Positions 8,188-49,583 of a DNA stretch of 64,000 bases are shown here, piece by piece. Position numbers and translations under genes: made by a program. The notes beneath the pieces are model-generated. The model did not search any database. It was not told the origin of the DNA and saw nothing but the letters and a program-made list of their open reading frames with translations. Origin of the DNA: Parabacteroides sp. (lineage in GTDB: Bacteria > Bacteroidota > Bacteroidia > Bacteroidales > Tannerellaceae); the NCBI GenBank assembly GCA_017937385.1, contig JAGBDR010000006.1, forward strand, positions 62,001 through 126,000, in the 5' to 3' direction. How positions within the stretch are numbered: the first letter of the stretch is position 1; every line of letters begins with the position of its first letter.

Positions 8188-9183
8188 ATGAGTCAGACAG
8201 TAGACATTCGTGAGTTGAACGAACGGATTGAAAGTAAAAGTTCGTTTGTGAACATGATTACGATGGGTATGGACCAGGTAATCGTCGGGCAGAAGCATTT
8301 GGTTGAATCATTATTGATCGGTCTGCTTTCAGATGGCCATATCCTGCTGGAAGGTGTGCCGGGATTGGCAAAGACATTGGCCATTAAGACGCTGGCATCA
8401 TTGATCGATGCGAAATACAGCCGTATTCAGTTCACGCCGGACTTGTTGCCGGCCGACGTACTCGGTACGATGATTTATAGTCAGAAAAGCGAAGAATTCC
8501 AAGTCAAACAAGGTCCCGTCTTCGCTAGTTTTGTGTTGGCGGATGAAATCAACCGTGCTCCGGCGAAAGTACAGAGTGCCCTGCTGGAAGCCATGCAGGA
8601 ACGCCAGGTGACCATCAGTGAGAATACATACAAGTTGCCGTCTCCTTTCTTAGTCATGGCAACCCAGAACCCGATCGAGCAAGAAGGTACCTACCCGCTG
8701 CCTGAAGCCCAGGTGGACCGTTTCATGCTGAAGGTCATCATCAACTATCCGAAGAAAGAGGAGGAGAAACTGATTATCCGCCAGAATATCTCCGGAGTGA
8801 AACCGGATATCAAACCGATCCTGACGAAAGAAGAGATCCTCGAAGCCCGCAAGGTGGTCCGCGAAGTCTATCTGGACGAAAAGATCGAACGGTATATCGT
8901 GGACATCGTCTTCGCTACCCGTTTCCCGCAGGAACATGGTCTGGCAAACCTGGCCAACATGATCTCTTTCGGTGCCTCTCCGCGTGCATCCATCAACTTG
9001 GCATTGGCTGCCCGTGCGTATGCTTTCATCAAACGCAGAGGATACGTGATCCCCGAAGACATCCGTGCCGTATGCCACGACGTGATGCGCCACCGTATTG
9101 GCCTGAGCTACGAAGCGGAAGCCAACAACCTGACGGCCGAAGAGGTAATCAGTGAAATCCTGAACAAAGTCGAAGTACCCTAA
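8188..9183 (+). CDS. MoxR-family AAA+ ATPase
   Basis: MoxR AAA+ chaperone-like ATPase (331 residues), first gene of the Bat aerotolerance operon. MoxR proteins are thought to help assemble or activate partner proteins with von Willebrand A domains. Walker A is LLEGVPGLAKTL at about 52-63. Walker B with the following helix is VLADEINRAPAKVQSALLEAMQE from about 115. ATQNPIEQEGTYPLPEAQ-type sensor 1 and the DRFMLK segment follow, with the lid domain at the C-terminus. The downstream DUF58 and VWA proteins are the expected clients. A heptamer-repeat region separates it from the next gene by 97 bp. Confidence 0.95.
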   Translation: MSQTVDIRELNERIESKSSFVNMITMGMDQVIVGQKHLVESLLIGLLSDGHILLEGVPGLAKTLAIKTLASLIDAKYSRIQFTPDLLPADVLGTMIYSQKSEEFQVKQGPVFASFVLADEINRAPAKVQSALLEAMQERQVTISENTYKLPSPFLVMATQNPIEQEGTYPLPEAQVDRFMLKVIINYPKKEEEKLIIRQNISGVKPDIKPILTKEEILEARKVVREVYLDEKIERYIVDIVFATRFPQEHGLANLANMISFGASPRASINLALAARAYAFIKRRGYVIPEDIRAVCHDVMRHRIGLSYEAEANNLTAEEVISEILNKVEVP

Positions 9184-9191
9184 AGGGAATA

Positions 9192-9276
9192 ATGGACAAT
9201 TGACAATGGACAATTGACAATTTGCTTTGTCATTGTCCTCTTAATTGTCAATTGTCAATTCTCAATTGTCAATTGA
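9192..9276. repeat. AATTGTC heptamer repeats in inverted arrangement (moxR-DUF58)
   Basis: GGACAATTGACAAT units at 9194-9221 face AATTGTC units at 9243-9275. The arms pair into a hairpin that ends 5 bp before the DUF58 ATG at 9281. The repeats stay open in the DUF58 frame from a TTG at 9245, which makes an artificial N-terminal extension possible. Confidence 0.85.
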
Positions 9277-23214: not shown

Positions 23215-23368
23215 ATTTGCGCCCAGGGCAACCGCATCAAAATTTCATCAACTACTTAACTTGCTGATAATCAAATGTGACATTTTATAATATTGGATAA
23301 GATACAAAATAAACCAGTATTGATTATCAGATTGTTAAGAATTTGATGCGGTTGCCCTGATTTGCGCC
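23215..23368. mobile_element. MITE-like element with 18-bp inverted ends and 9-bp target duplication
   Basis: CAGGGCAACCGCATCAAA (23224-23241) is repeated inverted at 23342-23359, giving a 136-bp element with no coding capacity. Both sides carry the direct repeat ATTTGCGCC (23215-23223 and 23360-23368), a 9-bp target-site duplication, so the insertion is fairly recent. A diverged, longer relative lies at 48562-48921 and a single end at 36033-36050. The parent transposase is not in the window. Confidence 0.85.
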
Positions 23369-33778: not shown

Positions 33779-33915
33779 TGTAAGGTTGTAACAACTCACA
33801 GGGCTTGTAAAATCAAAACTCCTCTTGAATCATACTTACGGATGTATATAAAAAATTAAAGGCTGTCTCACGACAACCCCTAACCAACTTTGTTAACCTT
33901 AAATCTAATACTATT

Positions 33916-33969
33916 ATGAAAAAACCACATTACAAATGTACGGGTATTTCCATAGTTATCAATGGATAA
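33916..33969 (+). pseudogene. Possible remnant of a TonB-dependent receptor leader
   Basis: After a leader that reads TTAACCTTAAATCTAATACT comes an ATG with 17 codons, MKKPHYKCTGISIVING, then a stop. Leaders of this kind and MKKPxYK-like starts are common before SusC/RagA-type receptor genes in Bacteroidales, so this may be the 5' stub of a deleted receptor. It is too short to be certain. Confidence 0.3.
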
Positions 33970-35896: not shown

Positions 35897-36032
35897 TTGT
35901 TTATTTTGGATAAAACCTATATTTTAGGATAATACTATGGATTAGAGAGTCGGTTTCATCCTTTGAAATAACGGTTATAGGAAGGAGCAAAAGATATCTT
36001 ATCAGGAGGATGAATAGGTTATTGAATTAATA

Positions 36033-36050
36033 TTTGATGCTGTTGCCCTG
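36033..36050. mobile_element. Single end of the MITE family
   Basis: TTTGATGCTGTTGCCCTG differs at one of 18 positions from the right inverted end of the element at 23224-23359. No matching left end is seen within 200 bp, so it is a decayed or solo end. It lies at the left border of the AT-rich block. Confidence 0.6.
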
Positions 36051-36053
36051 GAA

Positions 36054-36132
36054 AGCAACAGCCAACACTTGAAAAAGTGCAAGAATCATAGTTCATTTTG
36101 TAGTTGGGAACATTTACCAGATTTCACAGACA
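36054..36132. repeat. Left copy of the direct repeat that brackets the caspase block
   Basis: It begins AGCAACAGCC and ends TTTACCAGATTTCACAGACA, with 49 mostly diverged bases between. The same order, length and ends occur at 48362-48438. The shared core at the end is 21 bp, perfect, including one A before the quoted 20. The two copies are 12.3 kb apart. Confidence 0.75.
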
Positions 36133-36199: not shown

Positions 36200-36970
36200 C
36201 TAATATGTTATATGAATATTATGAAATTTAATTACTCTTTGATCAGAAGGGATTGACAATACCCATTGATGAAAGTCTTCCAATGTAATTTTTCTTGTGT
36301 AAGGAATATCTTTTTTAGTTAAAACAAAGATGACAGAAATACTTTCAATTGGTTCTTGTGTTTCTTTTCTGATTTTGTAATCTTGTGTAATAGGAAAATA
36401 GTTAGCTTCGTTGCTACGTAACAGTTGGGATGGTTCCGCAGGATTGGGATATACAATATTCCCTATTCCGGCTTCATCAAACCAAAAGATATGCGTGTAA
36501 CATGCTTTAGTCGGACGAATATTGAATAAGAAATTCTCTCCATTCTGATAAGGAGTTTCTTTGATCCCTTCTATGCATGCATCGAATTCTAAATCTCGTT
36601 TGTTTTTTCGAAGTTGGATAATTGCTTCTATGTTTACAGTATAAAATAGATGTTTTTCATCTGTAAGAATCTGTTCGTCCGTTATTTTGTAGTTCGTAAT
36701 TTCTCCGGAGAGTTCCGAATAACTTGAACTGACAAAATAACTTAAACGATCTGATATGGAATTGGTATTTATGACTGTAAACAATTCTGATATGCCCGCA
36801 GCCCGAAGTGCGTTGTTTTTTGCAACTTCTATTGCTTTACTTCTTGCCGCTTCTGGTGTGATATTTGCTATTTCCCAATCCCCTTTCGCCTGAACTTTTT
36901 TAGTTTGGGCAAAGAGAACCTGTGTGAATAGTGCGAACAGAATGAATGTGACAAATAGTACTTTGCGCAT
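36200..36970 (-). CDS. Secreted DUF4384-like protein, last gene of the caspase operon
   Basis: A 256-residue exported protein. The signal peptide MRKVLFVTFILFALFTQVLFA is followed by an LPP20-like helix-strand segment (ARSKAIEVAKNNALRAAGIS). The C-terminal part, NGENFLFNIRPTKACYTHIF with WFDEAGIGNIVYPNP, looks like DUF4384, a beta-rich domain often found near or fused to caspase-like proteases. It ends in a strand-rich region (SIEVIFVLTKKDIPY-like). There is no catalytic motif. It is 37 bp downstream of the LPP20-like lipoprotein gene, with which it shares the LPP20-like segment, so the two may interact. Confidence 0.72.
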   Translation of the reverse strand: MRKVLFVTFILFALFTQVLFAQTKKVQAKGDWEIANITPEAARSKAIEVAKNNALRAAGISELFTVINTNSISDRLSYFVSSSYSELSGEITNYKITDEQILTDEKHLFYTVNIEAIIQLRKNKRDLEFDACIEGIKETPYQNGENFLFNIRPTKACYTHIFWFDEAGIGNIVYPNPAEPSQLLRSNEANYFPITQDYKIRKETQEPIESISVIFVLTKKDIPYTRKITLEDFHQWVLSIPSDQRVIKFHNIHITY

Positions 36971-37007
36971 ATCAGAATGATTAATTATCTACAAAGCTAA
37001 CGATTTT

Positions 37008-37715
37008 TTATTCTTGTTGCAAATTTGTATTATTTGTTGATATGATTTGTTTGATTCCAGTCAAACTATCCAGTTTGTCATGTAGATGTTCAGCCTCTTG
37101 TTCCAAATTGCGATGAATACTTTTGATTACCATATCCGTTGCAGCTTTGGAACTATACGAAAGACAAATCATTACTTCTACATTTTTGTTGCTTAGATCT
37201 CTATAGATTTCAATCTCTTTTGCAACACGTCCCAGATCTGCAATGATTAATTCCTTACTTGCTTGTACGGCCTTGTTTATTGCAACGGCTTCTTCACTTG
37301 TTAATTCTTTATTAGAAACACTACTTTCTATAAGCGAACTTATATTGGAACTCATTAATCCAGCCAATTCAACTTTTGCTTGATGATTAGCTTGCATCTT
37401 TGCTGAGCTGACATTGCCTCCAATCACTCTTGAATTGGCAACAAGGTATGCCGGTAGTCCGGATTCATCTGTTGCAACAGATTTCATCCAGGCGTTTTCA
37501 ATTTGCTTTTCCAAAGGAATCCCCCCAATAAATGTCTTGAATCCCTCTTTTTTGTACGTTTTTGCCTCTTTTCTTGCTTGTTTGATAGCTGTTTGCTTCA
37601 ATTCTTTCCGAAGTTCGGATTTAGGCTGTGTTGAGTTACTTGGTTGTTTGCTACTACCACATCCCATAAAAAGAGTACACAGACTGAATAAAATAAATAC
37701 ATACTTTGTTTTCAT
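37008..37715 (-). CDS. LPP20-like lipoprotein
   Basis: A 235-residue lipoprotein. The signal peptide ends in LFMGCG, so Cys19 is the likely lipid site. The mature part has a charged helical linker (KSELRKELKQTAIKQARKEA) and a domain (ESGLPAYLVANSRVIGGNVS, then SAKMQANHQAKVELAGLMSS) like the LPP20 group of outer-membrane lipoproteins. The C-terminal helices run EQEAEHLHDKLDSLTGIKQI. It may sit on the inner face of the outer membrane. It lies between the transglutaminase-fold gene and the DUF4384-like gene. Confidence 0.7.
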   Translation of the reverse strand: MKTKYVFILFSLCTLFMGCGSSKQPSNSTQPKSELRKELKQTAIKQARKEAKTYKKEGFKTFIGGIPLEKQIENAWMKSVATDESGLPAYLVANSRVIGGNVSSAKMQANHQAKVELAGLMSSNISSLIESSVSNKELTSEEAVAINKAVQASKELIIADLGRVAKEIEIYRDLSNKNVEVMICLSYSSKAATDMVIKSIHRNLEQEAEHLHDKLDSLTGIKQIISTNNTNLQQE

Positions 37716-37793
37716 ATTGATTCTATTTTTAAATTATTGTTTGTTCTATTATCTGTTTTAATATGAATTTGTGACATCTGAACATGAAAAAAT

Positions 37794-39218
37794 TTAGTCT
37801 AATATGTAGATTTGAGCTTTTTGTTTCTTATAACGAGGTATGGATTGCCCTACTTTTGCATGCAAATATGTCGGATCACAAATAATATATTTTTCACCTT
37901 CCATATAGATAAAATCACCAGGAACAGGAGTGTTGAATTTGACTGCTGTTGTTACATGATCCGGGTAATCCAATAGGACAACCTGTAACCCTAAGAAACG
38001 TCTGACAAGTTGTGAGAACAAAACAGATCTGTCCTCACAATCAGAAAAAGGGTAGTAAAAGAGTTCTTCTGCGAAAAAGAACTTTTCGAACCCAAACTGT
38101 TGCAGGTCGTTTTTGTATTCAAATGAAGTCTGCACGAACTGTAAGAGGTAATTTACCGCCTCTTGTTCTGCCTTACCTGATAATTGGGGTAGCAACTCTT
38201 TTTCAAGACTTTTCCGTGTTATGTTGGAGAGTGGGGTATTGGCATAAACTGAAATTTCAGTTTGTGGATACGTCTGAAATAGATTAATCAGATTTTTGTT
38301 GATGTTGATATTGTATTTCTTGTCTCCGATATTACATTGCTTGGTATGCAATGACAAGGATAACCGGAAAGGTCTTTGGGCATGCAGATTTATCTGTTTG
38401 GTGGCATTGGGATAGTCAATTGTATAGGAATATATGCCTCCATCTACATCGGTATCTTCCAAAATGTAATACTTTTCACCTTCAAAATTGATAAACGGTT
38501 TCCCATAGACTGTTGTTTGAAAAGGAATAAGATGAATAAGCCTATTGTTGCATCTGCCGATCTTCATCCGAAATCCCATCTGGTTCATGATGAAAGTAGA
38601 AAAGACCGTTTGTTCGTTTTTCTTTCCCGGATAAAATGTTTCAACGATTCGACCTAATAACTGGAATGTTCCCCAATCATTCAAATTCATGTCGTTTTTG
38701 TAGAAAAGTAATGTGTTGATCAATTCCGTATAGGGCGAATCGGACAATTGTTCCCATACAGATGCAATTGTTTTTTCGTCAAGGTCCGCTAAAGAATATT
38801 TGTATTCGATAAAGTGAAGAAACTGTAGTTCAGAGCCATAAAAAGAAACCATTGTTTTGTGTCCTTTTTCTTTGTTGGGAATGGTCACATTCCACAAACA
38901 GGCCTCTTCCAATGAGGCTTTCTGACGAATGATGCTGTCTATTTCCAACTCTAAAGAAGAATCATATTCTTCTGGTGTAGTCTGTATATCCATTTGTGGA
39001 ATCGGTTTTTGGGGAACAGGAATCGGGTGATGAGTTTGAAACTTGATCCAGTTTTCTTCTATCGATTTGATAAAGGCACTCTTGATAGAGTCATTATAAA
39101 CCACATATTGTTGACGTACCTCATTCTTGAATGTATCAAACTGTTCTTGAAATGTATTTTGTCCGTAGGCAGCCACGGACAGGATTGATACGATACTGAT
39201 GGCTAAGAACTGTTTCAT
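37794..39218 (-). CDS. Exported transglutaminase-fold protein next to the caspase
   Basis: A 474-residue protein with a signal peptide (MKQFLAISIVSILSVAAYGQ). The C-terminal third has a transglutaminase-like cysteine-protease layout: Cys394 in YPFSDCEDRSVLFSQLVRRF, His421 in YPDHVTTAVKF and Asp448 in YIICDPTYLHA, in the order and spacing expected for the Cys-His-Asp triad. The N-terminal two thirds are not recognised; they contain helices and a beta-rich region around YGKPFINFEGEKYYILED. It may be a peptidase, an amidase or a cross-linking enzyme in the periplasm. It follows the caspase gene by 15 bp, so both should be made together. Confidence 0.75.
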   Translation of the reverse strand: MKQFLAISIVSILSVAAYGQNTFQEQFDTFKNEVRQQYVVYNDSIKSAFIKSIEENWIKFQTHHPIPVPQKPIPQMDIQTTPEEYDSSLELEIDSIIRQKASLEEACLWNVTIPNKEKGHKTMVSFYGSELQFLHFIEYKYSLADLDEKTIASVWEQLSDSPYTELINTLLFYKNDMNLNDWGTFQLLGRIVETFYPGKKNEQTVFSTFIMNQMGFRMKIGRCNNRLIHLIPFQTTVYGKPFINFEGEKYYILEDTDVDGGIYSYTIDYPNATKQINLHAQRPFRLSLSLHTKQCNIGDKKYNININKNLINLFQTYPQTEISVYANTPLSNITRKSLEKELLPQLSGKAEQEAVNYLLQFVQTSFEYKNDLQQFGFEKFFFAEELFYYPFSDCEDRSVLFSQLVRRFLGLQVVLLDYPDHVTTAVKFNTPVPGDFIYMEGEKYIICDPTYLHAKVGQSIPRYKKQKAQIYILD

Positions 39219-39233
39219 TGGATTTACTTTTGA

Positions 39234-40664
39234 TTATTCTTTTATTAATTTCCAACTTTTCCAAACTTCAGAAATGGTTCTTGAAGTTTGCACTTGAGGT
39301 GTCTGCATTTTCCGGTTTACATCGAATGCATGTGACTTTACGTTGTTGATCAGATAAGTCGCCAAATCAGCATAAGAAGTTGTTCCCTTGCTTTCCTGTA
39401 ACTTTTTTAACAGGAAATAGGTAAACATTCTATGTTGCTTTTCTTCATAAGGATAAGCAATTTCCGAATCGGTAGTTGCACTGAAAACGACCAAGTTCCC
39501 GTTTAACATCTCTTTGCGAGGTGTAACTTCTATACCGGCTCCGTCAACCAAAGCCGTTAATGCTCCTTCGTCACTTTTTCCACTAAAACACGCATCCAAG
39601 AAGACTGTGGCGGAGAGTGCTTGCATATCGGCTAAATCCCGATATAGGTTCTCGGCTTTTAAAGCGGCTTGTAGCGTTGTCGAACTACAATCTACCGGTA
39701 AAAGATGCATACCGTTTGTCTTGATATCGGACATTCCATGCCCGGAAAAATAGAATACGATATGTACATTCCCGTTTTTGGCTTTAACCGCATTTTTAAG
39801 GAATTGAATGGATGTCAGCATATCGCCATACGTTGCGTCTGTTTTACTGAATATGTTCCGGGATGGAATCCCCAATGTATTGGTACAATATTGGTAGAAG
39901 ACCTTGGCGTCATTACTTGAAAATCGGGTTTGGGACTCGTAATGATAATGCTCGTTACCAATGATAACTGCATAAGTTTCATCATTCGTAATTCCGGTTT
40001 TCGGGATCTGCATATCAACGTCAGACAGATTACTTATGGGTTGTTGAGCAACCTGCCGATTTTGGTTTTCAATATTCAATTCTCTTAACTTTGTCAATTC
40101 CGGATCATACGAAATGTGCAAAGGTGCATACGTGTTTTGTGCGCGACTATCATAAACGGTTTGTTGTCCATTAGGGAGTGTAAATGTCAATTTGTCCAAA
40201 CCGATATAATTGTCAGAAAAATAAAAATCCGGTTGGCTGACTTTTACTGAATCAAAATAGGAGATGAACTCTTTGGCTGTTTTTCCTCGTGGGACTTTTA
40301 CGGTCAATTGTCCGAATTGCTCGGAACGAATCAAAAAACATTCATTATCCGGATCGTAATCTCCTTCAATATGGAACTGATCCCAATTGATTGTTTCTGC
40401 ATATTTTTTCTTATAAATGGATAATGCTTCGTTTTCCCATTTCGTTATTTGACTGAGGCGATTTTCATCACTTGTCCGTTCTTTATATTGTTGTGTCGAT
40501 TCTTCGTACCGATCCCACTTAAGCCAAGTTTGTAGGCGAGGTTCAACATAGGAACGGACATAGGTTTCTACGGGAACACGGAACTGAAGAGGTGCACTGA
40601 CTTGAGCGCATAAAGTATGTGCAACAGTAAACAGAATAAATAATAATTTGTATTTGTTTTGCAT
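39234..40664 (-). CDS. Exported caspase-like cysteine protease (C14 family)
   Basis: A 476-residue bacterial caspase homologue (C14 fold) with a signal peptide (MQNKYKLLFILFTVAHTLCA), so it acts outside the cytoplasm. The p20-like domain begins near residue 230 with YAVIIGNEHY. The catalytic histidine is His309 in VFYFSGHGMSD and the nucleophile Cys359 in VFLDACFSG; both are intact. NLVVFSATTDSEIAYPYEEK carries the usual substrate-pocket region. The N-terminal 225 residues (LKWDRYEESTQQYKERTSDE and a beta-rich part) are unrecognised and could be a pro-domain. It lies 11 bp after the FGE-fold gene and before the transglutaminase-fold gene. Its target is unknown. Confidence 0.88.
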   Translation of the reverse strand: MQNKYKLLFILFTVAHTLCAQVSAPLQFRVPVETYVRSYVEPRLQTWLKWDRYEESTQQYKERTSDENRLSQITKWENEALSIYKKKYAETINWDQFHIEGDYDPDNECFLIRSEQFGQLTVKVPRGKTAKEFISYFDSVKVSQPDFYFSDNYIGLDKLTFTLPNGQQTVYDSRAQNTYAPLHISYDPELTKLRELNIENQNRQVAQQPISNLSDVDMQIPKTGITNDETYAVIIGNEHYHYESQTRFSSNDAKVFYQYCTNTLGIPSRNIFSKTDATYGDMLTSIQFLKNAVKAKNGNVHIVFYFSGHGMSDIKTNGMHLLPVDCSSTTLQAALKAENLYRDLADMQALSATVFLDACFSGKSDEGALTALVDGAGIEVTPRKEMLNGNLVVFSATTDSEIAYPYEEKQHRMFTYFLLKKLQESKGTTSYADLATYLINNVKSHAFDVNRKMQTPQVQTSRTISEVWKSWKLIKE

Positions 40665-40675
40665 GATTGTATGAT

Positions 40676-42769
40676 TTATTTGTCTAAAACTAAACGGAAA
40701 CCAAAATCCATATGTCCCCCGTCTAATCTTGATTTATAACGTTCTTTTATATCACCAGTACAATTTCCACGAATATACATTGATTTTTCACCTCGTATAA
40801 CTCTTTCTGTTCCATGGCTTGGGCCTATAGGATTTTTTTGTGATTCAGACGGATAAGTTCCATACCAATCTGAACATATTTCCCCTACATTTCCAGTCAT
40901 ATCATATATACCTAATTCATTCGATTTCTTCATTCCAACAAATACCGAAGTATGACCACTATAATACCATATATCATTCCAGCCCACTTCTTCAAAATCA
41001 TTACTACCACTAAACATGTAACTTTGACTATTACTACCACCACTAGCCGCATATTCCCATTCAGCTTCTGTTGGTAATCGATATTTCAACCCTGTTAAAT
41101 CATTTAGACGAATAATAAACACTTGTATTTCATCCCAACTAACACTTTCAACAGGTAGATCATCACCTTTATAAACAGAAGGATTAGTGCCCATAATGTA
41201 CTTCCATAATCTTTGAGTGACTTCATGCTTTCCTATATAAAAATCATCTAATATGACTTCATGAATAGGTTGAGTATCATAATACAAATTACTACCCATA
41301 AAGAAACTTCCTCCTTTAACAAATGCCATTTCATATAATGGTAGTATTGATTGCAGATAAAGATCTTCTTTTCTTTGAGTTTTCATATAAAGGCTTGTAT
41401 AACCACCAGATTCTATCGTAATAATAGCGATTCTATCCATTTTTTTATTGTCTGAATAAATGAATTTGAAATAGTCTCCATTCTTTCCTGATGTATTGGA
41501 TAAATTACACCATGTAGCGTCTGATTTTGCAGTCCAGTTAATAGGAGTCTGAATCTTCCCATCGCTATAATCAGAATAGATTCCACAAGTTATGGGATTC
41601 CCTTTATAATTTTGTAATACATAAAAGTGTTGAGTTTCATTATTGAAATCAATATTAATGGTTGCAATTCTACATTGGTTTGTCATATTCTCTTTACAAG
41701 AAAAATAAACGACCCCATTCCCATTTCCGGATTTAGTTTGTATGTCACACCATTCACTATCAGAATTAACATTCCATTTTTCATTAGTACTAACTGCAAA
41801 ATACATGAAATTTTCTCCATTATAACCACAATAGTGTGCCAATGAAGATAATACATTAGTGGATATATTATCTTCTTGTCCTTTTTGTATAATATTCATA
41901 TTTATATCATTAATAAAAACAGTTGCCATTCTATCACTAAAATTCAAATTTGGCATTATATTAATTAAAATAACTTCATTACTTTTTCCAGATATAGAAG
42001 AAAAAGTACACCAATCCTGATCACAATTAATACCCCATTCTACATTTTCGGCTTCAATCTTGAATTGATAAATACCACCTTCTGCAACAACTTCAATAGA
42101 CGTTGTTGAAACTCTTAAATATTGTGCCTCTGTCTGAAATGACTTTATTTCTCCATAACTAATCGTTCCATTTTTATATTTGACATAAGCCTTATAGTAA
42201 TAAGTTGTTCCCGAATCCAATTCCTCAACTTCAAAACTTAAATTATTACCAGACGGACTTGTATTTGATACAGTCAGAAGATTATCTTTACATAATTCGT
42301 CTGTTGAATATAGAATACCAACTTCACTCAGATTAGTTCCTTCAAAACTCAAAGATAGAGTTGCTGTTTTTGTAGTTATCTCAGTCGCATCACCGGTTTT
42401 TACGGAAGGCGAAAGTGTTATAAAATTTTTTATTTCACTAAATATTCGATTTCCCTTTTTGTCTTCTGCAAAAATTTTATAGAAATATTCTGTCCCCTGT
42501 TCAAGCCCATTCAAAGAGACAGAAACTTCACCGTTTGCCTTTTCTGCATATTGTATTTGGGCATTTGATAACTCTTTCTCCATGCCATACATAACACCAG
42601 CTTTGTTGGCATTTCCTATTATGGAAAACAGAATAGTAGAAGAGGTGTAGTCGATAGAACTACTTTTGACATTATCGATAGTGATAGGTGTGGAAGGGAT
42701 TGGATCACTTTCACAACCTAATAATAAAATGATTAATAATATTTTTATATATATTTTCATGATAAACAC
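40676..42769 (-). CDS. Lipoprotein with Fn3-like, BACON and formylglycine-generating-enzyme fold
   Basis: A 697-residue lipoprotein (LLLGCESD, Cys19). Two Fn3-like domains (about 28-215; repeated YFYKIFAEDK and YYYKAYVKYK strands) come first. Two good BACON domains with WC motifs (DQDWCTF, DSEWCDI) and a third, weaker one (DATWCNL) follow. From about 480 there is a SUMF1/FGE-sulfatase fold: MAFVKGGSFFMGSN, YIGKHEVTQRLWKYIMGTNP, LPTEAEWEYAASGG, NVGEICSDWYG and MDFGFRLVLDK. The paired cysteines of catalytic FGE are not evident, so it is probably a binding module and not an enzyme. A second ATG at 42760 is possible. It sits 3 bp after the LRR lipoprotein gene. Confidence 0.82.
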   Translation of the reverse strand: MFIMKIYIKILLIILLLGCESDPIPSTPITIDNVKSSSIDYTSSTILFSIIGNANKAGVMYGMEKELSNAQIQYAEKANGEVSVSLNGLEQGTEYFYKIFAEDKKGNRIFSEIKNFITLSPSVKTGDATEITTKTATLSLSFEGTNLSEVGILYSTDELCKDNLLTVSNTSPSGNNLSFEVEELDSGTTYYYKAYVKYKNGTISYGEIKSFQTEAQYLRVSTTSIEVVAEGGIYQFKIEAENVEWGINCDQDWCTFSSISGKSNEVILINIMPNLNFSDRMATVFINDINMNIIQKGQEDNISTNVLSSLAHYCGYNGENFMYFAVSTNEKWNVNSDSEWCDIQTKSGNGNGVVYFSCKENMTNQCRIATINIDFNNETQHFYVLQNYKGNPITCGIYSDYSDGKIQTPINWTAKSDATWCNLSNTSGKNGDYFKFIYSDNKKMDRIAIITIESGGYTSLYMKTQRKEDLYLQSILPLYEMAFVKGGSFFMGSNLYYDTQPIHEVILDDFYIGKHEVTQRLWKYIMGTNPSVYKGDDLPVESVSWDEIQVFIIRLNDLTGLKYRLPTEAEWEYAASGGSNSQSYMFSGSNDFEEVGWNDIWYYSGHTSVFVGMKKSNELGIYDMTGNVGEICSDWYGTYPSESQKNPIGPSHGTERVIRGEKSMYIRGNCTGDIKERYKSRLDGGHMDFGFRLVLDK

Positions 42770-42772
42770 ATA

Positions 42773-45604
42773 TTATTTATATACAATTTTGTAATCTCCA
42801 TTTGTCATGCTTTCTATTGTTTGACCTGATTTTAAATAGATCGTTTCTATTGGATTGTTTGAAAAATAGAGTTCTTTTATTGAAAGATTATTGCTAACAT
42901 CAATACTTGTTAGATTATTTTGTGAACAATTTATATCTGTTATCTTTTTGTTTTTGCTAACATCTAATTCAGTTAATAAATTATTCATACATCCAAGTCC
43001 TTCTAAATTAACGTTGTTATGCAAATTGATTTCTCCTATTTTATTGTTATAAAAGCTTAGTCTTTTTAAATTAGTATTATTGTTTACATGTAAATATGTT
43101 AATTTGTTATTACTTACATCAAGCCATTCTAAATTGAGATTATTGGATACATCAATGGATGATAGTTCATTATTCTCTATCCACAAAGCTTTTATATTTT
43201 TGTTTTGACTTACATCAATTGTACTAATGTTGTTTTTGTTAAGATATAATGATTCTATGTTTTTTATTTCTTTTGTATCTATACTTGGTAAATTATTCTG
43301 TTCACAATTTAAAATTGTTAGTAAAGAGTTGTTGTTTAGAATAATACTGTTTAACCCATTATTTCTACAATGAACATGAGTTAGCATTCTATTATTTGAC
43401 AAATCCAAGTTGGATATATGATTGTTGAAACACCATAAAATGCTCAATTTTGAATTATTTTTAAGATCAAGTTGTGATAATTCCATATTTTCACAATAAA
43501 GATCTGTTAAATCTTTATTATTTCTGACATTTAGAGAAGTTAGTTTGTTATCACCACATGATAAAAATTTTAAATTGACATTATTATCAATGTTTAACTC
43601 TGTAAGAGCATTTTCATGACATCTTAATTGTTCCATTTTGTTTAATGGAAATAAATCTAATCGCTGGATCTTATTTCCAAAACAACATAAGTCATTTATT
43701 TCTGTATTCTTTTGCAAATAAATATTTTGTATATTATTTAAAGCACAGTCCAAATAAGTTACATTGATAAAATATTCTATTCCTTCTAAAGATGATATGT
43801 TTTTCTCTCTACAATTTATAAAAGTAACTTTAGAAGCCTCTTCTTCCGAAATCTCCCCATCCTTGTTTGTATCAAAATTTTCAACTAAATAAGCCTTGAA
43901 ATTAACATCCGGTATATTTATAATCGCAACTTCTTTCCCCTCTTGTTCTATCGTAACCGTTTTTGACAGATCCCCTGCCGTAACAGTCATTGTCGCCGTT
44001 CTTGATTGTGACGATGTATTCGCTGAAATTGAACAAGTAACCGTTTTATCTCCGCTTCCAGATGTAACCGAAGGTGTACACCAAGTTTGATTGGATGAAA
44101 TCGTCCAATTCGTATTGCTTGCGATGCTGAAACTGGAGGTCTGCTCATTTGCTGTTACCGATATAGATTCTGGAGAAACAGACAGATTAGGAAGTACTTC
44201 GGTTTTTCCTTCCTGAGTAACTACGATTTGAATGGAAGACGAACTTGTTTCTACCGTGATAATTGCAGTTCGTCTTTGTGTCGATGTATTTTCTGTGATT
44301 GAAAATGAAATCGTTTTATTGTTGGATCCAGATGTAGTAGCCACATTACACCAGGATTGATCGGATGAAATATTCCAGTTGGTATTACTGCTGATGGTAA
44401 ATTCTCCATGTCCTGTTTCAAAACCGAAAAGGAAAGAATTTTTGGAAACAGCTAATGTTTGGTTGGTGCCTGTTTGTGTCACTGTTATATGTTGAAACAA
44501 TGTTCCGGCTTTTATTGAAATCATAGCTGTTCTTTCTTGCGTCGATGTGTTTTCTGAGACCACAAAAGAGACGGTTTGATTATTAGAACCGGCTGCAATA
44601 GATGGTGTACACCAAGATTGATCGGATGTGATAGTCCAATCGATATTGCTTGTAATTGAAAAATTGTAGGTGTTTCTATCTGCATTGACAGAAAAAGTAT
44701 TTGTTGAAACAGACAAGGTTGCAGACTTGCTCTGTTGGACGATCGTAATTTCTTGCGTCAAGGAGCCTGATTTGACTTTTACAATTGCTTTTCTTTCCTG
44801 GTTGGTTGTATTTTCGGAAACAGTAAACGATAAAGTATTTTCTCCATTTCCGGACGAAGACGATAAGACACACCAAGATTGGTCGGAAGATGCCTCCCAT
44901 GATAAATTCGTATAAATGATGAAATTATAGGATTTATTTTCCGGACTGATCGAGAAATAGTTGGAAGAAACAGATAAATTTTCATTGCAACCTTTTTGAT
45001 TGATTGTTATTTTCTGTTCTTTGTTTCCGGCAGTAACGGTTACGATTGCCTGTCTTGCGGATGTCGTTGTGTTTGCTTTCAACAGGATATTGATGGTATT
45101 ATTGGTTGTTCCTGTGTTGGGGGAAACTTCACACCAGCTTTGGTTGGAGGATGCATACCAACCCGTGTTGCTGTTAATCTTTACACTGTATGTATTTTCC
45201 TGATCACCAGCTTCGATATTATTGATAGAAGTTGATAGTTGAAGTTGCTCGGTCGTAAATGACTTCGTTATTCCATAAATACTATTTGATTTTCCGGATG
45301 CGTAAGCCTTATAAAAATATTTGGTCCCATCAGACAGGTTCGATAACTGGAAGTTGAAATGAGTTCCAGTGATTGTTTGAGTGGAACTTTTGTTTACTGT
45401 ATTGGAATTGAATAAAGAATCAGTACTGCAAAAAACACCTATTTCATCAATAAGATCATTTTTGTCCATACTGACTTGGATGGAAGCACTATTAGTCGTA
45501 ATATTAGTTGCGTCACCGGTTGAGACTGCTATTTGTACCGGTTGAAGTTCTTTTTCACAGCCCAATAAAAGTAAGACACTGAATATGTATAGAATTTGTT
45601 TCAT
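42773..45604 (-). CDS. Lipoprotein with Fn3-like domain, five BACON domains and leucine-rich repeats
   Basis: A 943-residue lipoprotein (LLLLGCEKE, Cys16). An Fn3-like domain (about 25-118) leads five tandem BACON domains of roughly 84 residues each (about 120-555), marked by WC motifs SNQSWCEV, SDQSWCVL, SDQSWCTP, SDQSWCNV and SNQTWCTP. A calcium-loop-like segment (DTNKDGEISEEEA) then leads about 15 leucine-rich repeats of around 21 residues with an LxCxxN pattern (LKFLSCGDNKLTSLNV, LEWLDVSNNKLTYLHV). BACON domains often bind glycan or mucin, and the LRRs are likely a protein-binding surface. The C-terminus has no recognised anchor. It has the lowest GC of the block by eye. Confidence 0.87.
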   Translation of the reverse strand: MKQILYIFSVLLLLGCEKELQPVQIAVSTGDATNITTNSASIQVSMDKNDLIDEIGVFCSTDSLFNSNTVNKSSTQTITGTHFNFQLSNLSDGTKYFYKAYASGKSNSIYGITKSFTTEQLQLSTSINNIEAGDQENTYSVKINSNTGWYASSNQSWCEVSPNTGTTNNTINILLKANTTTSARQAIVTVTAGNKEQKITINQKGCNENLSVSSNYFSISPENKSYNFIIYTNLSWEASSDQSWCVLSSSSGNGENTLSFTVSENTTNQERKAIVKVKSGSLTQEITIVQQSKSATLSVSTNTFSVNADRNTYNFSITSNIDWTITSDQSWCTPSIAAGSNNQTVSFVVSENTSTQERTAMISIKAGTLFQHITVTQTGTNQTLAVSKNSFLFGFETGHGEFTISSNTNWNISSDQSWCNVATTSGSNNKTISFSITENTSTQRRTAIITVETSSSSIQIVVTQEGKTEVLPNLSVSPESISVTANEQTSSFSIASNTNWTISSNQTWCTPSVTSGSGDKTVTCSISANTSSQSRTATMTVTAGDLSKTVTIEQEGKEVAIINIPDVNFKAYLVENFDTNKDGEISEEEASKVTFINCREKNISSLEGIEYFINVTYLDCALNNIQNIYLQKNTEINDLCCFGNKIQRLDLFPLNKMEQLRCHENALTELNIDNNVNLKFLSCGDNKLTSLNVRNNKDLTDLYCENMELSQLDLKNNSKLSILWCFNNHISNLDLSNNRMLTHVHCRNNGLNSIILNNNSLLTILNCEQNNLPSIDTKEIKNIESLYLNKNNISTIDVSQNKNIKALWIENNELSSIDVSNNLNLEWLDVSNNKLTYLHVNNNTNLKRLSFYNNKIGEINLHNNVNLEGLGCMNNLLTELDVSKNKKITDINCSQNNLTSIDVSNNLSIKELYFSNNPIETIYLKSGQTIESMTNGDYKIVYK

Positions 45605-45616
45605 CTTGTTGAACGT

Positions 45617-46477
45617 TTAAAATATGATACCTACTGAAATATTTCCTTCTCCGTTTTTATGTCCCTGTCCAATCAGGCAGTTAAATCCGCCACCTAAGGT
45701 GAACATTTTTATTTTGAATAATACACCTATTTCCGGATCGATTCCAGAATACGTTCCACTTGCGATTTCAATCTGTTCGTTATTGACCGTTTCCCATTGC
45801 AACCATTTGTTTCCATACCCAATTCCTGCATACATACAAATGTTAGGATGAAGTTGGCCGACTGTTCCGGCGTATGCGGAAAAGCGCCCTTTTTTTGAAT
45901 TGCCGTTGAAAAAGGCATCGTCCACATCTCCTTTTGTCGCATTTTTATCTTTGCTTCCAAACGAAGATTTAATCTTGACATAGCCACCCCATTTTTTCAT
46001 ATATCCGGCCATGAGTGAATAAGATAATGTATTACCAAAAGAACATCCGGGCAGGATCATAAAATGGCCTGCGGATAATTGTTTTTCCTTCTGTTGAACT
46101 GTTGGCTTAGGCGTGTTTTCTTTAGAAAGAGGTTCTTTCCCCTTTTGAGGAACAGCTGCAATCGAAGATGGATGGAGTATGATTTTGAAAATGAAATTTC
46201 CCATCAACACGTTATCTTTCAAACAATTCCAATATATGTTTTTTTCTCCGCTTGCTTGGTCGGATATATCTCCCTGTATGGTCTTGCAATCATTCCAGGT
46301 AAGCCCGTCATTTTCGGAATATTGCAATTGTAAAGAACAGAGAACATCGGTTTCTAATATACAACTGACTTGAATGGTGTCATTATTAGCCGTAGCTGTG
46401 AGATTCGTTACCTGTTGTGCGTTTGCCACAGATAAAAAAAGCAAGTTAGATAGCAAAATAAAGATAAAGCGCTTCAT
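45617..46477 (-). CDS. Outer-membrane beta-barrel protein with N-terminal Fn3-like domain
   Basis: A 286-residue exported protein. The signal peptide MKRFIFILLSNLLFLSVANA is followed by a short Fn3-like domain (QVTNLTATANNDTIQVSCIL, then LQLQYSENDGLTWNDC) of a type common in Bacteroidetes. A Pro/Lys-rich linker (KENTPKPTVQQKEKQ) leads a C-terminal region of alternating strands (YSLMAGYMKKWGGYVKIKSS, MFTLGGGFNCLIG) that ends in SVGIIF, a typical barrel end with terminal Phe. It may be a pore or anchor for the lipoproteins encoded after it. An in-frame ATG 18 codons upstream (46531) gives no better signal peptide and is not preferred. Confidence 0.7.
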   Translation of the reverse strand: MKRFIFILLSNLLFLSVANAQQVTNLTATANNDTIQVSCILETDVLCSLQLQYSENDGLTWNDCKTIQGDISDQASGEKNIYWNCLKDNVLMGNFIFKIILHPSSIAAVPQKGKEPLSKENTPKPTVQQKEKQLSAGHFMILPGCSFGNTLSYSLMAGYMKKWGGYVKIKSSFGSKDKNATKGDVDDAFFNGNSKKGRFSAYAGTVGQLHPNICMYAGIGYGNKWLQWETVNNEQIEIASGTYSGIDPEIGVLFKIKMFTLGGGFNCLIGQGHKNGEGNISVGIIF

Positions 46478-46484
46478 GATTTTT

Positions 46485-47096
46485 TTAATTGTTAGAAAAA
46501 ATGATTTGTCCGGAATAAGATTGTTCGTCAACTTTCAGATCCCAAGTTATATATGGATAAAGAGCAAATGTTTCGGAAGATAAAGCATATTCCGATCCAT
46601 TTCCTTTGACATCTAATAAGATCGTGTCTTTGTATCGTATTTTTAATTGATAAGTGCATGGAGAATCCCATCTGAACAGGACCGATCGGCTAGAGGGTAC
46701 ACAAATCGAATCGTGGTCGGGATATAATAATTTTACAAAGACTTGATCACCGGATGCACGATTCCGATATTCGATGGAAGTCGGATACAGTACTTCATCT
46801 GCTGTTTGCTGTTTTGTATGCAAAAAAACAGAAATACAGATTGCGAATAAAATGCAGGCTGCAACTGACAACCAACGCGACATTTGTATTTTCTTCTTTT
46901 GAAAAGTCGAAACCTGTATATCGGGTAAATCGTTTTCTCCTACAATTGTAGCTATGGCCCGGATTTTAGTCAGATAATCCCGGCATGATTCACATTGGCT
47001 CAGATGCTCTTGAAAACGTGTTTCTTCCTCTTGTCCCATTTGGTTCAAAAGGTATCGTTCTACTTGTATCTTATCACATATATTTTTGTTATCCAT
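46485..47096 (-). CDS. Zinc-finger membrane anti-sigma factor
   Basis: A 203-residue membrane protein. The N-terminal cytoplasmic part has the zinc-binding anti-sigma motif HLSQCESCRDYL (HxxxCxxC, His about 31, Cys 35 and 38) and precedes one membrane span (WLSVAACILFAICISVFLHT, about 75-94). The C-terminal 105 residues lie outside and form a beta-rich sensor-like domain (SVLFRWDSPCTYQLKIRYKD). This is the plan of ECF-type anti-sigma factors. It follows the sigma-like gene by 34 bp, so the pair is probably the switch of the whole operon. The inducing signal is not known. Confidence 0.82.
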   Translation of the reverse strand: MDNKNICDKIQVERYLLNQMGQEEETRFQEHLSQCESCRDYLTKIRAIATIVGENDLPDIQVSTFQKKKIQMSRWLSVAACILFAICISVFLHTKQQTADEVLYPTSIEYRNRASGDQVFVKLLYPDHDSICVPSSRSVLFRWDSPCTYQLKIRYKDTILLDVKGNGSEYALSSETFALYPYITWDLKVDEQSYSGQIIFSNN

Positions 47097-47130
47097 GACG
47101 ATGTTTTTTCTCTATTATCTGATTCTGAAA

Positions 47131-48276
47131 TCAAATGTGACATTTTTCCTGTTCTTTTTTTATGTTTATAAGACGTTCTTGTAATGTTTTCCTGACTCGT
47201 TCGTATTCCTTTCTTGTTTTTGCTACTGTCTTGACAAAATTGGAAGACTCGGGAAGAAGGTTATATTTGGCTTCTACTATTTGGTTATAACTTTGCCCTT
47301 TTATAACTTTTCGTAATAGAATATCCACTTTGTCTTCTATACCTTGTGTCAGTTTTTTATAAAGAGGATGTTCGGAATTCAATAGTATGATTGATATAGC
47401 GTAAGCGACTTCGTAGGAATTATGAATGTCGATGTCCAAAAATGAACAATCTGAATGGTCTGTTTCCTCGTCCTCTTCTAACTCTAAATAAGGATAAAGA
47501 TCTATAGATTCCTCTTTGGATGTATATTTGAGCCGTTGATTTTGTAGACGGTAATTGCATATTTGGACAACATAATTTCTAAAGTCTGCTCCGTTTTTGA
47601 AGGAAAGAGTGTTGTCTGTCTGCAATTTATTCTGCAAAATCTCGTATGTGTCGCTCCAGGCTGCGTCTTTGATCAAATCGGTTTGTTCTTTGGGTAGCGG
47701 AACGAACAGAAGGTGCTGGGCTGCTATTTCGATAATCTCTTTTACATAGGAACAAGTGACATTCCAAAAAGAAGATATGTTTTTTTTCAAATACTGTAAG
47801 TATTGTTGAATGGATAGAGGATACTGATTGTCAATGTTCTCTTGAAAAAATGCATTGACCGATGTTGGTGTATTGAATATTCGGGAACATGAACAAAATC
47901 GTGCGTAATATTCTTCAAATACATCTAATGGGAAAAAATAGCCAATGGATACTTTGTTGTACTTCAGCTCTTTGTCCAATAATGCAGTTGTCTTATCCTT
48001 TTTACGTTTTACATACATATCGGACATCCGAAACAATTGTTTTTTCAACTTGATATTTGAAGTTTTCTGTCTGGCAATGAAATCGGAATATCCAATAATA
48101 TGGGTATAAAAGTAATCCAAGAATTCAACTTTTGTGAAACAGGGTTCCTCATATTGAAACAGCATAGTGTCAATAGCCTTTTCGAAATTATCTATGACTC
48201 CAAGATGTGTCAATTGATGCCTTTCATCTTCTTTCTGTAATATTTCTCTTTTCAGAAATTGTTTGTCGTTCATCAT
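47131..48276 (-). CDS. Long sigma-70-like regulator, first gene of the caspase operon
   Basis: A 381-residue soluble protein. The second half resembles a sigma-70 region 2 to region 4 layout: FWNVTCSYVKEIIEIAAQHL, IKDAAWSDTYEILQNKLQTD, GADFRNYVVQICNYRLQNQR, then a helical end (LRKVIKGQSYNQIVEAKYNL, TRKEYERVRKTLQERL) that fits the DNA-binding region 4. The first 170 residues are extra compared with ECF factors of about 180 residues and match nothing I know. The anti-sigma gene right after it supports the call. It may recognise its own promoter. The identity is moderate because the core motifs are divergent. Confidence 0.6.
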   Translation of the reverse strand: MMNDKQFLKREILQKEDERHQLTHLGVIDNFEKAIDTMLFQYEEPCFTKVEFLDYFYTHIIGYSDFIARQKTSNIKLKKQLFRMSDMYVKRKKDKTTALLDKELKYNKVSIGYFFPLDVFEEYYARFCSCSRIFNTPTSVNAFFQENIDNQYPLSIQQYLQYLKKNISSFWNVTCSYVKEIIEIAAQHLLFVPLPKEQTDLIKDAAWSDTYEILQNKLQTDNTLSFKNGADFRNYVVQICNYRLQNQRLKYTSKEESIDLYPYLELEEDEETDHSDCSFLDIDIHNSYEVAYAISIILLNSEHPLYKKLTQGIEDKVDILLRKVIKGQSYNQIVEAKYNLLPESSNFVKTVAKTRKEYERVRKTLQERLINIKKEQEKCHI

Positions 48277-48292
48277 AACTCATTAATGTTAT

Positions 48293-48300
48293 CAAAGAAA
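48293..48300 (-). promoter_or_regulatory. Possible -7 box (TTTCTTTG) near the sigma-like gene start
   Basis: On the minus strand TTTCTTTG differs from TAnnTTTG at one base and lies 16 bp before the ATG. A better box, TAATTTTG at 48520-48513, would give a leader of about 230 bases that contains the repeat hairpin. Confidence 0.35.
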
Positions 48301-48361
48301 AAACGTGGCACTGTTGCTACTATGTCTGTGAGGCTCTGGTAAGCCCTGACTACAATAAATA

Positions 48362-48438
48362 AGCAACAGCCCACGTCAATAGCATAAGAACCATTTACCT
48401 TATCCTGTAGTCATAAAATTTACCAGATTTCACAGACA
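48362..48438. repeat. Right copy of the direct repeat that brackets the caspase block
   Basis: It begins AGCAACAGCC and ends TTTACCAGATTTCACAGACA, as at 36054-36132. An imperfect inverted partner, TGTCTGTGAGGCTCTGGTAA (48322-48341) with TGTTGCT before it, lies just ahead, so the leader of the sigma-like gene could fold. The repeats could be recombination sites or regulator-binding sites. Confidence 0.75.
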
Positions 48439-48561
48439 GGGATAATAAGGAAATGTCTCTTATAAATATCTTTGTTATTTTGTCATTGGATATGATTTGT
48501 CCATATCCTTTGCAAAATTAGGGATTTTCTTTCAATTGATAAATAAGAATGGGGTTAATTT

Positions 48562-48921
48562 CAGGGCAACCGCATCAAAATAACGTTAGCTTAGATACCA
48601 AACGTAGTTTTCAACCTCCTCCTCTCCCTTATTGTACATTTTCCTAAAAAAGCCATTGGTCCAAATCGAAACTACTACCCCATAAAAATTGATTTTCTAC
48701 CCCATTTAATTCAAATTTCCCTTGCGGATAATATTTTTTAAGAAACATGATTTTTGACAACGGGCTATTATTCAGACAAATACAAAATCATGTGTTTTTA
48801 AGGGGGGATATTGTAAACTGTTGAAACTTCTCACCCTTGTATTTACCCCATTTATCCCGATTAATACAAAATCGACAAGTATTGATTATCAACTCATTGA
48901 CATTTTGATGCGGTTGTCCAG
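48562..48921. mobile_element. Longer, diverged MITE-family element at the right edge of the caspase block
   Basis: The left end CAGGGCAACCGCATCAAA matches the 23224 element exactly. The right end TTTGATGCGGTTGTCCAG has two changes. The right interior also matches the small element (TACAAAAT, then AGTATTGATTATCA). At 360 bp it is longer and has no target duplication, so it is older or rearranged. It has no ORF of note. Confidence 0.75.
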
Positions 48922-49022
48922 AGAATCGTCAGCATCATATTGAATAAACGCTGTGTTCCATCAGACTCTTCAGTATAAAAATTGAAGGGTATATCCGGAT
49001 TATTCTTTATGGCAGGCATTCC

Positions 49023-49583
49023 TTAAACCAAATGATGTGTCGCCATGTATTTCCAGAGGGGGGCGGCGTGGAGTGCTTGTTTGATTTGGTCGTTCAGGAG
49101 TAATTCTTTTACTTCATCGAGTGTCAGAAGATGGACGCTCAGGTCTTCTGTCGCTTCAAGGTGCTGGGAGGTGACCGGTTCTACATCTGTGGCGAGATAG
49201 CAATAGGTCAGATTGGTGTGGGTACTCGGATTGACACCGATCACCATCAGTTCGCTCCAGTTTCCGTTGCCGTAGCCGGTCTCTTCAAGCAATTCCCGTT
49301 GGGCGGAAGCAAGTGGGGAAGCGTCTTCCTTTTCGCAAACACCGGCACAAAGTTCGTAAGCCGTGATGCCTAAGCCGTGACGGTATTGGCTGACCAATAC
49401 GAATTTCTGTTCTTTGGTGATTGCGATCACGTTGATCCATTCCGGATATTCGAAAACATAATATTCGGGAATCCTGTTCCCGTTCGGCAATTCCACTTCT
49501 TCCTTGCGTACGGTAAACCACGGCTGGCGGGACAAGTATTCGCTTTTCAATACGTTCCAGTTTCTGTTTTTCGGAGTTTCCAT
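49023..49583 (-). CDS. Nudix hydrolase (ADP-ribose pyrophosphatase type)
   Basis: A 186-residue Nudix enzyme that cleaves nucleoside diphosphates linked to another group. The Nudix box is GVCEKEDASPLASAQRELLE followed by ETGYG, with the conserved AxRELxEETGY core. The first gap is longer than the GX5E consensus, and the REL/EETG residues are intact. The N-terminal PWFTVRKEEVELPNGNRIPE and the proline-containing stretch after the box (GVNPSTHTNLTYCYLATDVE) fit the ADP-sugar group. It stands alone, beside the AT-rich block but in the GC-richer background. Confidence 0.87.
   Translation of the reverse strand: METPKNRNWNVLKSEYLSRQPWFTVRKEEVELPNGNRIPEYYVFEYPEWINVIAITKEQKFVLVSQYRHGLGITAYELCAGVCEKEDASPLASAQRELLEETGYGNGNWSELMVIGVNPSTHTNLTYCYLATDVEPVTSQHLEATEDLSVHLLTLDEVKELLLNDQIKQALHAAPLWKYMATHHLV

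Follow-up and report, generated by a model that had tools for sequence, protein, structure and literature searches.

An operon in Parabacteroides encoding an exported caspase, a LapG-like protease and a sigma/anti-sigma pair, with a possible role in processing variable surface lipoproteins

LapG, a calcium-dependent protease of the periplasm, releases adhesins from cells by cleavage. In DvhG, a relative of LapG, the calcium residues D316 and E318 are reported to flank the catalytic C317, and their mutation to inactivate the protein (PMC13090378). Caspases occur widely in the bacterial conflict systems described so far. The two papers of Kaur et al. (2020 and 2021) describe System 4 as a membrane-associated caspase conflict system (PMC7159879) and place extracytoplasmic function (ECF) sigma genes beside EACC2-caspase systems (PMC8195603). 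This study was concerned with an operon at positions 36200-48276 of a 64,000-nucleotide stretch of Parabacteroides sp. contig JAGBDR010000006.1, referred to here as the window. Its nine minus-strand open reading frames (ORFs) include an exported caspase, an exported protease that resembles LapG, a sigma/anti-sigma pair and two surface-type lipoproteins. We consider it plausible, though short of probable, that this operon is an envelope device under sigma/anti-sigma control that processes or sheds variable surface lipoproteins. From its upstream end, the operon reads as follows.

47131..48276, minus strand: divergent ECF-type sigma factor of 381 amino acids (aa), with about 180 extra helical N-terminal residues, assigned by several weak sequence and fold lines
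46485..47096, minus strand: zinc-finger anti-sigma factor, 203 aa, with one membrane helix (zf-HC2 7.3e-6, over cut-off)
45617..46477, minus strand: exported protein called a barrel by eye, with its start at the ATG at 46477
42773..45604, minus strand: lipoprotein with five BACON stretches and leucine-rich repeats (LRR) (Pfam BACON 2.9e-56, LRR_4 5.3e-14)
40676..42760, minus strand: lipoprotein with BACON and a C-terminal FGE-sulfatase fold, with its start at the ATG at 42760 (Pfam FGE-sulfatase 1.4e-34, BACON 2e-19)
39234..40664, minus strand: exported C14 caspase, His309/Cys359 (Pfam Peptidase_C14 6.5e-21, over cut-off)
37794..39218, minus strand: exported transglutaminase-fold cysteine protease, probably LapG-like, 474 aa, with D393-C394-E395-D396, H421 and D448, assigned by fold model and conserved residues
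37008..37715, minus strand: small lipoprotein of a family without a Pfam name, which recurs with the protease
36200..36970, minus strand: exported DUF4384 protein (Pfam DUF4384 1.1e-6, over cut-off; FlgT_N 0.02, below it)

The intergenic gaps are 7-78 bases with the starts as chosen. The GC content of 2-kb intervals fully inside the operon is 0.28-0.39, and outside it is mostly 0.43-0.57, with a single other dip (0.39 at 22-24 kb). The source genome is 3.73 Mb in 128 contigs, with a completeness of 90.5%. An earlier note on this DNA had described nine tightly spaced, AT-rich genes on one strand, and the ORF coordinates and GC values confirmed this. Pfam matches over cut-off in five proteins (zf-HC2; BACON and LRR_4; FGE-sulfatase and BACON; Peptidase_C14; DUF4384) bore out the zinc-finger, LRR-BACON, FGE-BACON, caspase and DUF4384-like assignments made there. 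Pfam gave no family over cut-off in the sigma-like, barrel, transglutaminase-fold and small lipoprotein proteins. The label "LPP20-like" for the small lipoprotein had to be dropped, as none of eight members of its family matches LPP20 (Pfam PF02169). The FGE-BACON lipoprotein also matches NCBIfam PorK/GldK at 1.1e-13, but with 51 bits against a cut-off of 350. Inspection by eye was the basis for the export signals, the lipoboxes and the membrane helix of the anti-sigma factor.

The operon was compared with four kinds of described system. First, LapG and DvhG (BTLCP, Peptidase_C93) are likewise exported transglutaminase-fold cysteine proteases with a C-H-D triad and with surface-type proteins encoded nearby, and the Asp and Glu that flank the cysteine in the window protease correspond to DvhG D316/C317/E318. 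However, the window protease is missed by PF06035 and has 474 aa with a long N-terminal part, the nine genes lack secretion genes, and the operon adds a caspase, a DUF4384 protein and a sigma pair. Secondly, in the systems of Kaur et al. too, a caspase is associated with a sigma gene in EACC2 and with membrane proteins in System 4, along with variable domains. The window caspase falls below the EACC1-caspase cut-off, however, and no EACC gene is named among the nine. In the main texts of the two papers (PMC7159879, PMC8195603), "signal peptide" appears in neither and "lipoprotein" is absent from the 2021 one. Third, ECF sigma/zinc anti-sigma pairs also head operons with a sigma factor and an HxxxCxxC membrane anti-sigma factor, but the window sigma factor carries its long N-terminal extension and has no Pfam match of its own. 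Lastly, orthocaspases and metacaspases (Peptidase C14) share the His-Cys dyad and the Pfam C14 match, whereas the window caspase has an export signal, a 220-residue N-terminal part without a Pfam family and different genomic partners. No description of the operon was found in the literature searched, which covered few subscription journals, in agreement with the expectation that this exact locus had not been characterised.

The mechanism proposed here begins with the gene pair, which suggests that the anti-sigma factor would hold a dedicated sigma factor at the inner membrane until a periplasmic signal frees it and switches the operon on. The operon would then make two exported cysteine proteases, the caspase and a LapG-like protease that probably needs calcium. 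The barrel, the small lipoprotein and the DUF4384 protein would be envelope partners. The most likely substrates would be the variable surface lipoproteins of the same operon, here the BACON-LRR and BACON-FGE proteins, and cutting may mature or release these presumably surface-exposed proteins. The observations behind this proposal are the linkage of the genes, the conserved catalytic residues, a modelled fold for which LapG is the best match, the Asp-Cys-Glu signature and the replacement of the surface proteins between genomes.

The AlphaFold model of the protease has a mean pLDDT (predicted local distance difference test) of 86 and a pTM (predicted template modelling score) of 0.84. A fold search of the PDB placed first 4u65_E, a 181-residue chain of a LapD-domain complex (probability 1.00, E 2.7e-3) that is taken to be Pseudomonas LapG from an incomplete title. 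Ranks 3, 5, 6, 10 and 11 were Legionella LapG chains, and the LapG chains together had probabilities of 0.93-1.00 with a best E of 2.7e-3. In the family alignment, 22 of 23 rows retain the triad Cys394/His421/Asp448, proposed in the earlier note, and also D393, C394 and E395. The 23rd row is the N-terminal piece of an L047 gene called in two pieces. In addition, a profile alignment to seven LapG-type sequences landed on DCED at E 3e-4 with the 23-row alignment and at 0.0042 with a 104-row alignment, and three control profiles in the same comparison gave 0.18, 0.39 and 0.52. Eight of nine loci yielded LapG-type sequences, L135 being the exception, and the profile alignment excluded L136, which lies below the family cut-off. 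That these sequences carry GDCED is partly circular, since the regular expression used to select them contained DC. The conservation of DCED in the 104-row alignment is also partly circular, since DCED was the search pattern in the named-genome scan; the figure of 22 of 23 is not. The protease profile found no sequence of a solved structure at E 1, nor did a 35-residue piece at E 10. When 14 family members were searched in Pfam there were three weak matches only, each to another family and each in one member. From sequence and model the protease appears to be LapG-like, but it is not filed as LapG because PF06035 does not match it. In G031, the protease frame has one stop near the N-terminus (L029, about 9040-9208). 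The earlier note had left the role open among defence, competition and adhesion remodelling; adhesion remodelling is favoured because the protease resembles LapG.

The surface-type proteins are the variable part of these loci and differ between genomes. For example, G031, which has the most similar caspase (64%), has three BACON-GLUG lipoproteins between its barrel and its caspase, the slot that the BACON-LRR and BACON-FGE pair fills in the window. L046 has a WD40 protein, and L048 has an FGE lipoprotein and a 1754-aa FGE/Fib_succ protein. BspA-type LRR proteins were found in L033, L034 and L035, kelch in L028, an LRR giant in L113 and fn3 repeats in L123. Of 26 caspase loci, 10 have surface-type domains among the genes that run with the caspase on its strand, the Pfam test having covered a minority of the other runs, and four of the 26 (L032, L036, L062 and L104) have no unlabelled ORF of at least 90 aa in the caspase's run. 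Loci without a called caspase carry proteins with LamG/BACON (L039, L043) or PEGA (L041).

Recurrence was followed in three sets: 118 family genomes, the best 80 of 559 protease relatives in named genomes, and 395 phylum genomes. Counts in the named set are for 77 loci, L050, L051 and L081 having been dropped as presumed duplicates of L032, L035 and L036. The ORF caller missed the L037 protease and the L031 caspase under antisense ORFs, and counts of locus composition are slightly low. Among the family genomes, the protease was found in 18, the sigma profile matched in 14 (at 15 places) and the caspase profile in 23. Thirteen of the 15 sigma places lie less than 10 kb from a protease. The two unlinked ones are G079:C240, on another contig than its protease, and G068:C72, in a genome without a protease match, where the sigma match starts 217 bases into the contig. 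Fourteen of 16 caspase places (E 1e-70 or better) also lie less than 10 kb from a protease, and 10 of the 16 share a contig with a sigma gene; the two unlinked places, G058:C136 and G040:C109, are on contigs without a protease match. None of 11 weaker caspase-profile matches is near a protease match, and some miss the catalytic part. The Parabacteroides genome itself holds a second, diverged copy with barrel, sigma, anti-sigma, DUF4384, protease and caspase genes and a kelch lipoprotein upstream.

The best 80 of the 559 protease relatives are mostly Bacteroidota by title, with a few titled Cloacimonadota, Calditrichaceae, Neomarinimicrobiota, Armatimonadetes and Proteobacteria. A caspase was called in 13 of the 77 named loci, and these 13 contain the barrel, present and adjacent to the caspase gene, in 11, the DUF4384 protein in 11 and the small lipoprotein in 12. 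Of the 13 caspase loci of the family set, 10 contain the barrel and 5 have it next to the caspase gene. The 381-aa type of sigma factor occurs in none of the 77 named loci, and in the full 80 only the presumed duplicates L050, L051 and L081 carry it. L048 has instead a 190-aa sigma factor with Pfam region 4 upstream in the caspase run, and L113, L089 and L123 have short ORFs in the caspase's run that look sigma-like by eye. The sigma profile matched in 3 of the 395 phylum genomes (at most four candidates per genome scored, among the matches listed), at full length only in G000 and G014, the third being a short partial match. Because the 381-aa type is absent from the 77 loci and full-length in only two phylum genomes, the sigma factor is narrow in distribution, and the protease is broad, mostly without a caspase.

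What recurs in Bacteroidota is a module that combines the exported transglutaminase-fold protease with a small lipoprotein and a DUF4384 protein, joined in part of the loci by an exported caspase and a barrel. The search for the same gene order that the earlier note proposed bears out the linkage of sigma/anti-sigma, caspase, protease and surface-type lipoproteins. It does not bear out the nine genes as a conserved unit, since relatives carry other proteins in place of the LRR and FGE lipoproteins and a caspase is missing from some linked sigma loci. The nine genes do not form a single fixed system.

Several observations weigh against an envelope device of the kind proposed. Three of the 13 linked sigma loci (G063, G082 and G096) lack a caspase, and G015, G035, G040 and G031 (C5) have caspase and protease with this sigma factor not nearby, those of G040 being on separate contigs. 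The fold search gave no match at E 0.001, LapG covers the protease model with a TM (template modelling) score of 0.20 (0.42-0.45 of LapG), and a Cytophaga protease (ranks 2, 4 and 9) and streptococcal TglA (rank 7) also rank high. The hhalign probabilities of the LapG-type alignment were just 40% and 8%. PF06035 has no match in the source genome (0 of 1), and among 14 control genomes Caulobacter gives one. No LapA-type [T/A/P]AAG site was found in the two lipoproteins and four other operon proteins, and Pfam identified no cyclic di-GMP (c-di-GMP) receptor domain among the nine proteins. Lastly, there is no convincing shared promoter.

The sigma factor appears to be a divergent ECF protein by several weak lines. 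Four of 11 family members match Sigma70_r4_2 (region 4), the best at 4.9e-4. The AlphaFold model (mean pLDDT 82, pTM 0.61) has E. coli sigmaE as its best PDB match (probability 0.98, E 0.085), with none at E 0.001, and the sigmaE region-2 structure matches the model with probability 0.97 and a weak E of 0.88. The sigma profile also matches a 210-aa ORF in G550, short-ECF-like by eye, at 4.1e-5 over positions 203-276. An hhalign comparison of the family with six short sigma candidates was not significant (E 0.14), and the profile found only unrelated sequences of solved structures (E 0.58 or higher). HxxxCxxC is present in 15 of 15 zfH-labelled proteins directly downstream of a 381-aa-type sigma gene (including three duplicate rows) and in 17 of 22 in the wider set (three duplicates); the five without it, in L048, L066, L089, L092 and L113, are doubtful. 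For a shared promoter, the best gapped motif occurred in 4 of 11 groups, more than the 2-3 reached in 20 shuffles, but it was AT-rich and absent from the window, and it was rejected. Sigma-70-type promoter-like and terminator-like sites were about as numerous as in shuffles or fewer. No Rfam match upstream of the sigma gene passed the threshold, the one match being at chance level (E 3.1). The 165 bases upstream of the sigma gene (48276-48440, minus strand) have a better fold than shuffled versions (z -2.7), 1 of 200 of which did as well. A tRNA gene of G031 (L128 8761-8834) stops about 120 bases short of the sigma match in the related operon.

ECF/zinc anti-sigma pairs commonly respond to envelope stress, and the operon could be read as envelope-stress quality control, in which misfolded outer-membrane proteins would be sensed by the pair and removed by the two proteases, with the surface lipoproteins as passengers. 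The weak sigmaE fold match agrees with this, as does the barrel, which adjoins the caspase in 11 of the 13 caspase loci of the named set. However, the sigma factor is sporadic in both the family and the phylum genomes, and one genome holds two diverged copies, and we regard this explanation as unlikely.

For the caspase, the proposed dyad His309/Cys359 was upheld, being kept in 13 of 13 caspases of family loci and in 31 of 31 of the wider set (including three duplicate rows). Its profile found no sequence of a solved structure at 1e-3, and the caspase domain listed only metacaspase-1, weakly (E 0.52 and 1.3). Spread by plasmids was rejected: 4 of 72,556 plasmid records gave a distant caspase, none covering 80% of the query. 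The caspase could instead belong to an envelope conflict or suicide system, in which an attack would be perceived by the surface lipoproteins, and the caspase with its partner protease would then kill or incapacitate either the cell or its attacker. The known membrane-associated and ECF-linked caspase systems would fit, as would an AT-rich operon absent beside its flanking genes in four relatives. However, PADLOC gave only a generic caspase match (8.8e-9) and a weak one (0.018) with no system-specific model, NCBIfam gives no system, and the caspase scores 61.9 against a cut-off of 140 bits for the EACC1-associated caspase (NF047832). Exported proteases would not act in the cytoplasm, and L038, L043 and L044 have sigma, anti-sigma and protease without a caspase. 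The defence role, including anti-phage defence, was therefore not supported, and a conflict system seems to us distinctly improbable.

The operon is accessory. In G014, G049, G060 and G066, four genomes of the same genus, DNA matches longer than 150 bases stop at 35911-35925 and resume at 49022-49041, and none falls inside the operon in the 20-kb stretches compared. The flanking genes of these four genomes lie at least 30 kb from each other or are split between contigs, so the operon stands at a rearranged place, and no clean empty site was seen. A 21-bp direct repeat brackets the operon.

36112..36132, plus strand: left copy of the 21-bp direct repeat
48418..48438, plus strand: right copy of the 21-bp direct repeat

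The source genome has these two copies only, and with the pattern shifted by one base it occurs nowhere else at up to three mismatches. The two operon ends align over a longer imperfect stretch around the repeat, and both copies lie upstream of a minus-strand gene. It is possibly an insertion scar or a shared control site. Among eleven other loci, the only direct flanking repeat was one 12-mer (L113), and inverted flanking matches were of 19 bases (L042) and 12 bases (G031, L113). At 48561-48922 there is an element resembling a miniature inverted-repeat transposable element (MITE), with 21-base inverted ends and 35 matches in the source genome including itself, many of them partial. Related ends lie at 23226-23357 and, with three mismatches, at 36031-36048. 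A FopS small RNA (RF04319) was found over its gathering score at 33847-33928 on the minus strand.

The MITE-like element and direct repeats at the edges, the variable gene order between loci and the four caspase runs without an unlabelled ORF would fit a chance cluster, in which the lipoproteins and the protease module are neighbours only through island assembly by transfer. However, the genes are tightly spaced on one strand, the same barrel-caspase slot holds three BACON-GLUG lipoproteins in G031, and surface-type domains recur in caspase runs of other loci, as noted above. There is little chance, in our view, that the cluster is fortuitous.

A wider reading may be considered, which we regard as possible but doubtful. 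The operon would then represent a Bacteroidota counterpart of the Lap system without a c-di-GMP receptor, built on a large unnamed family of LapG-like periplasmic proteases that in some lineages is joined by an exported caspase and a dedicated sigma/anti-sigma switch, and that would cut exchangeable surface lipoproteins and so re-set the surface on demand. The protease family is large (559 relatives) and nearly invisible to Pfam. A caspase acting outside the cytoplasm, together with a protease of the LapG kind and surface proteins that can be exchanged, would amount to a new form of surface control in a dominant phylum of the gut.

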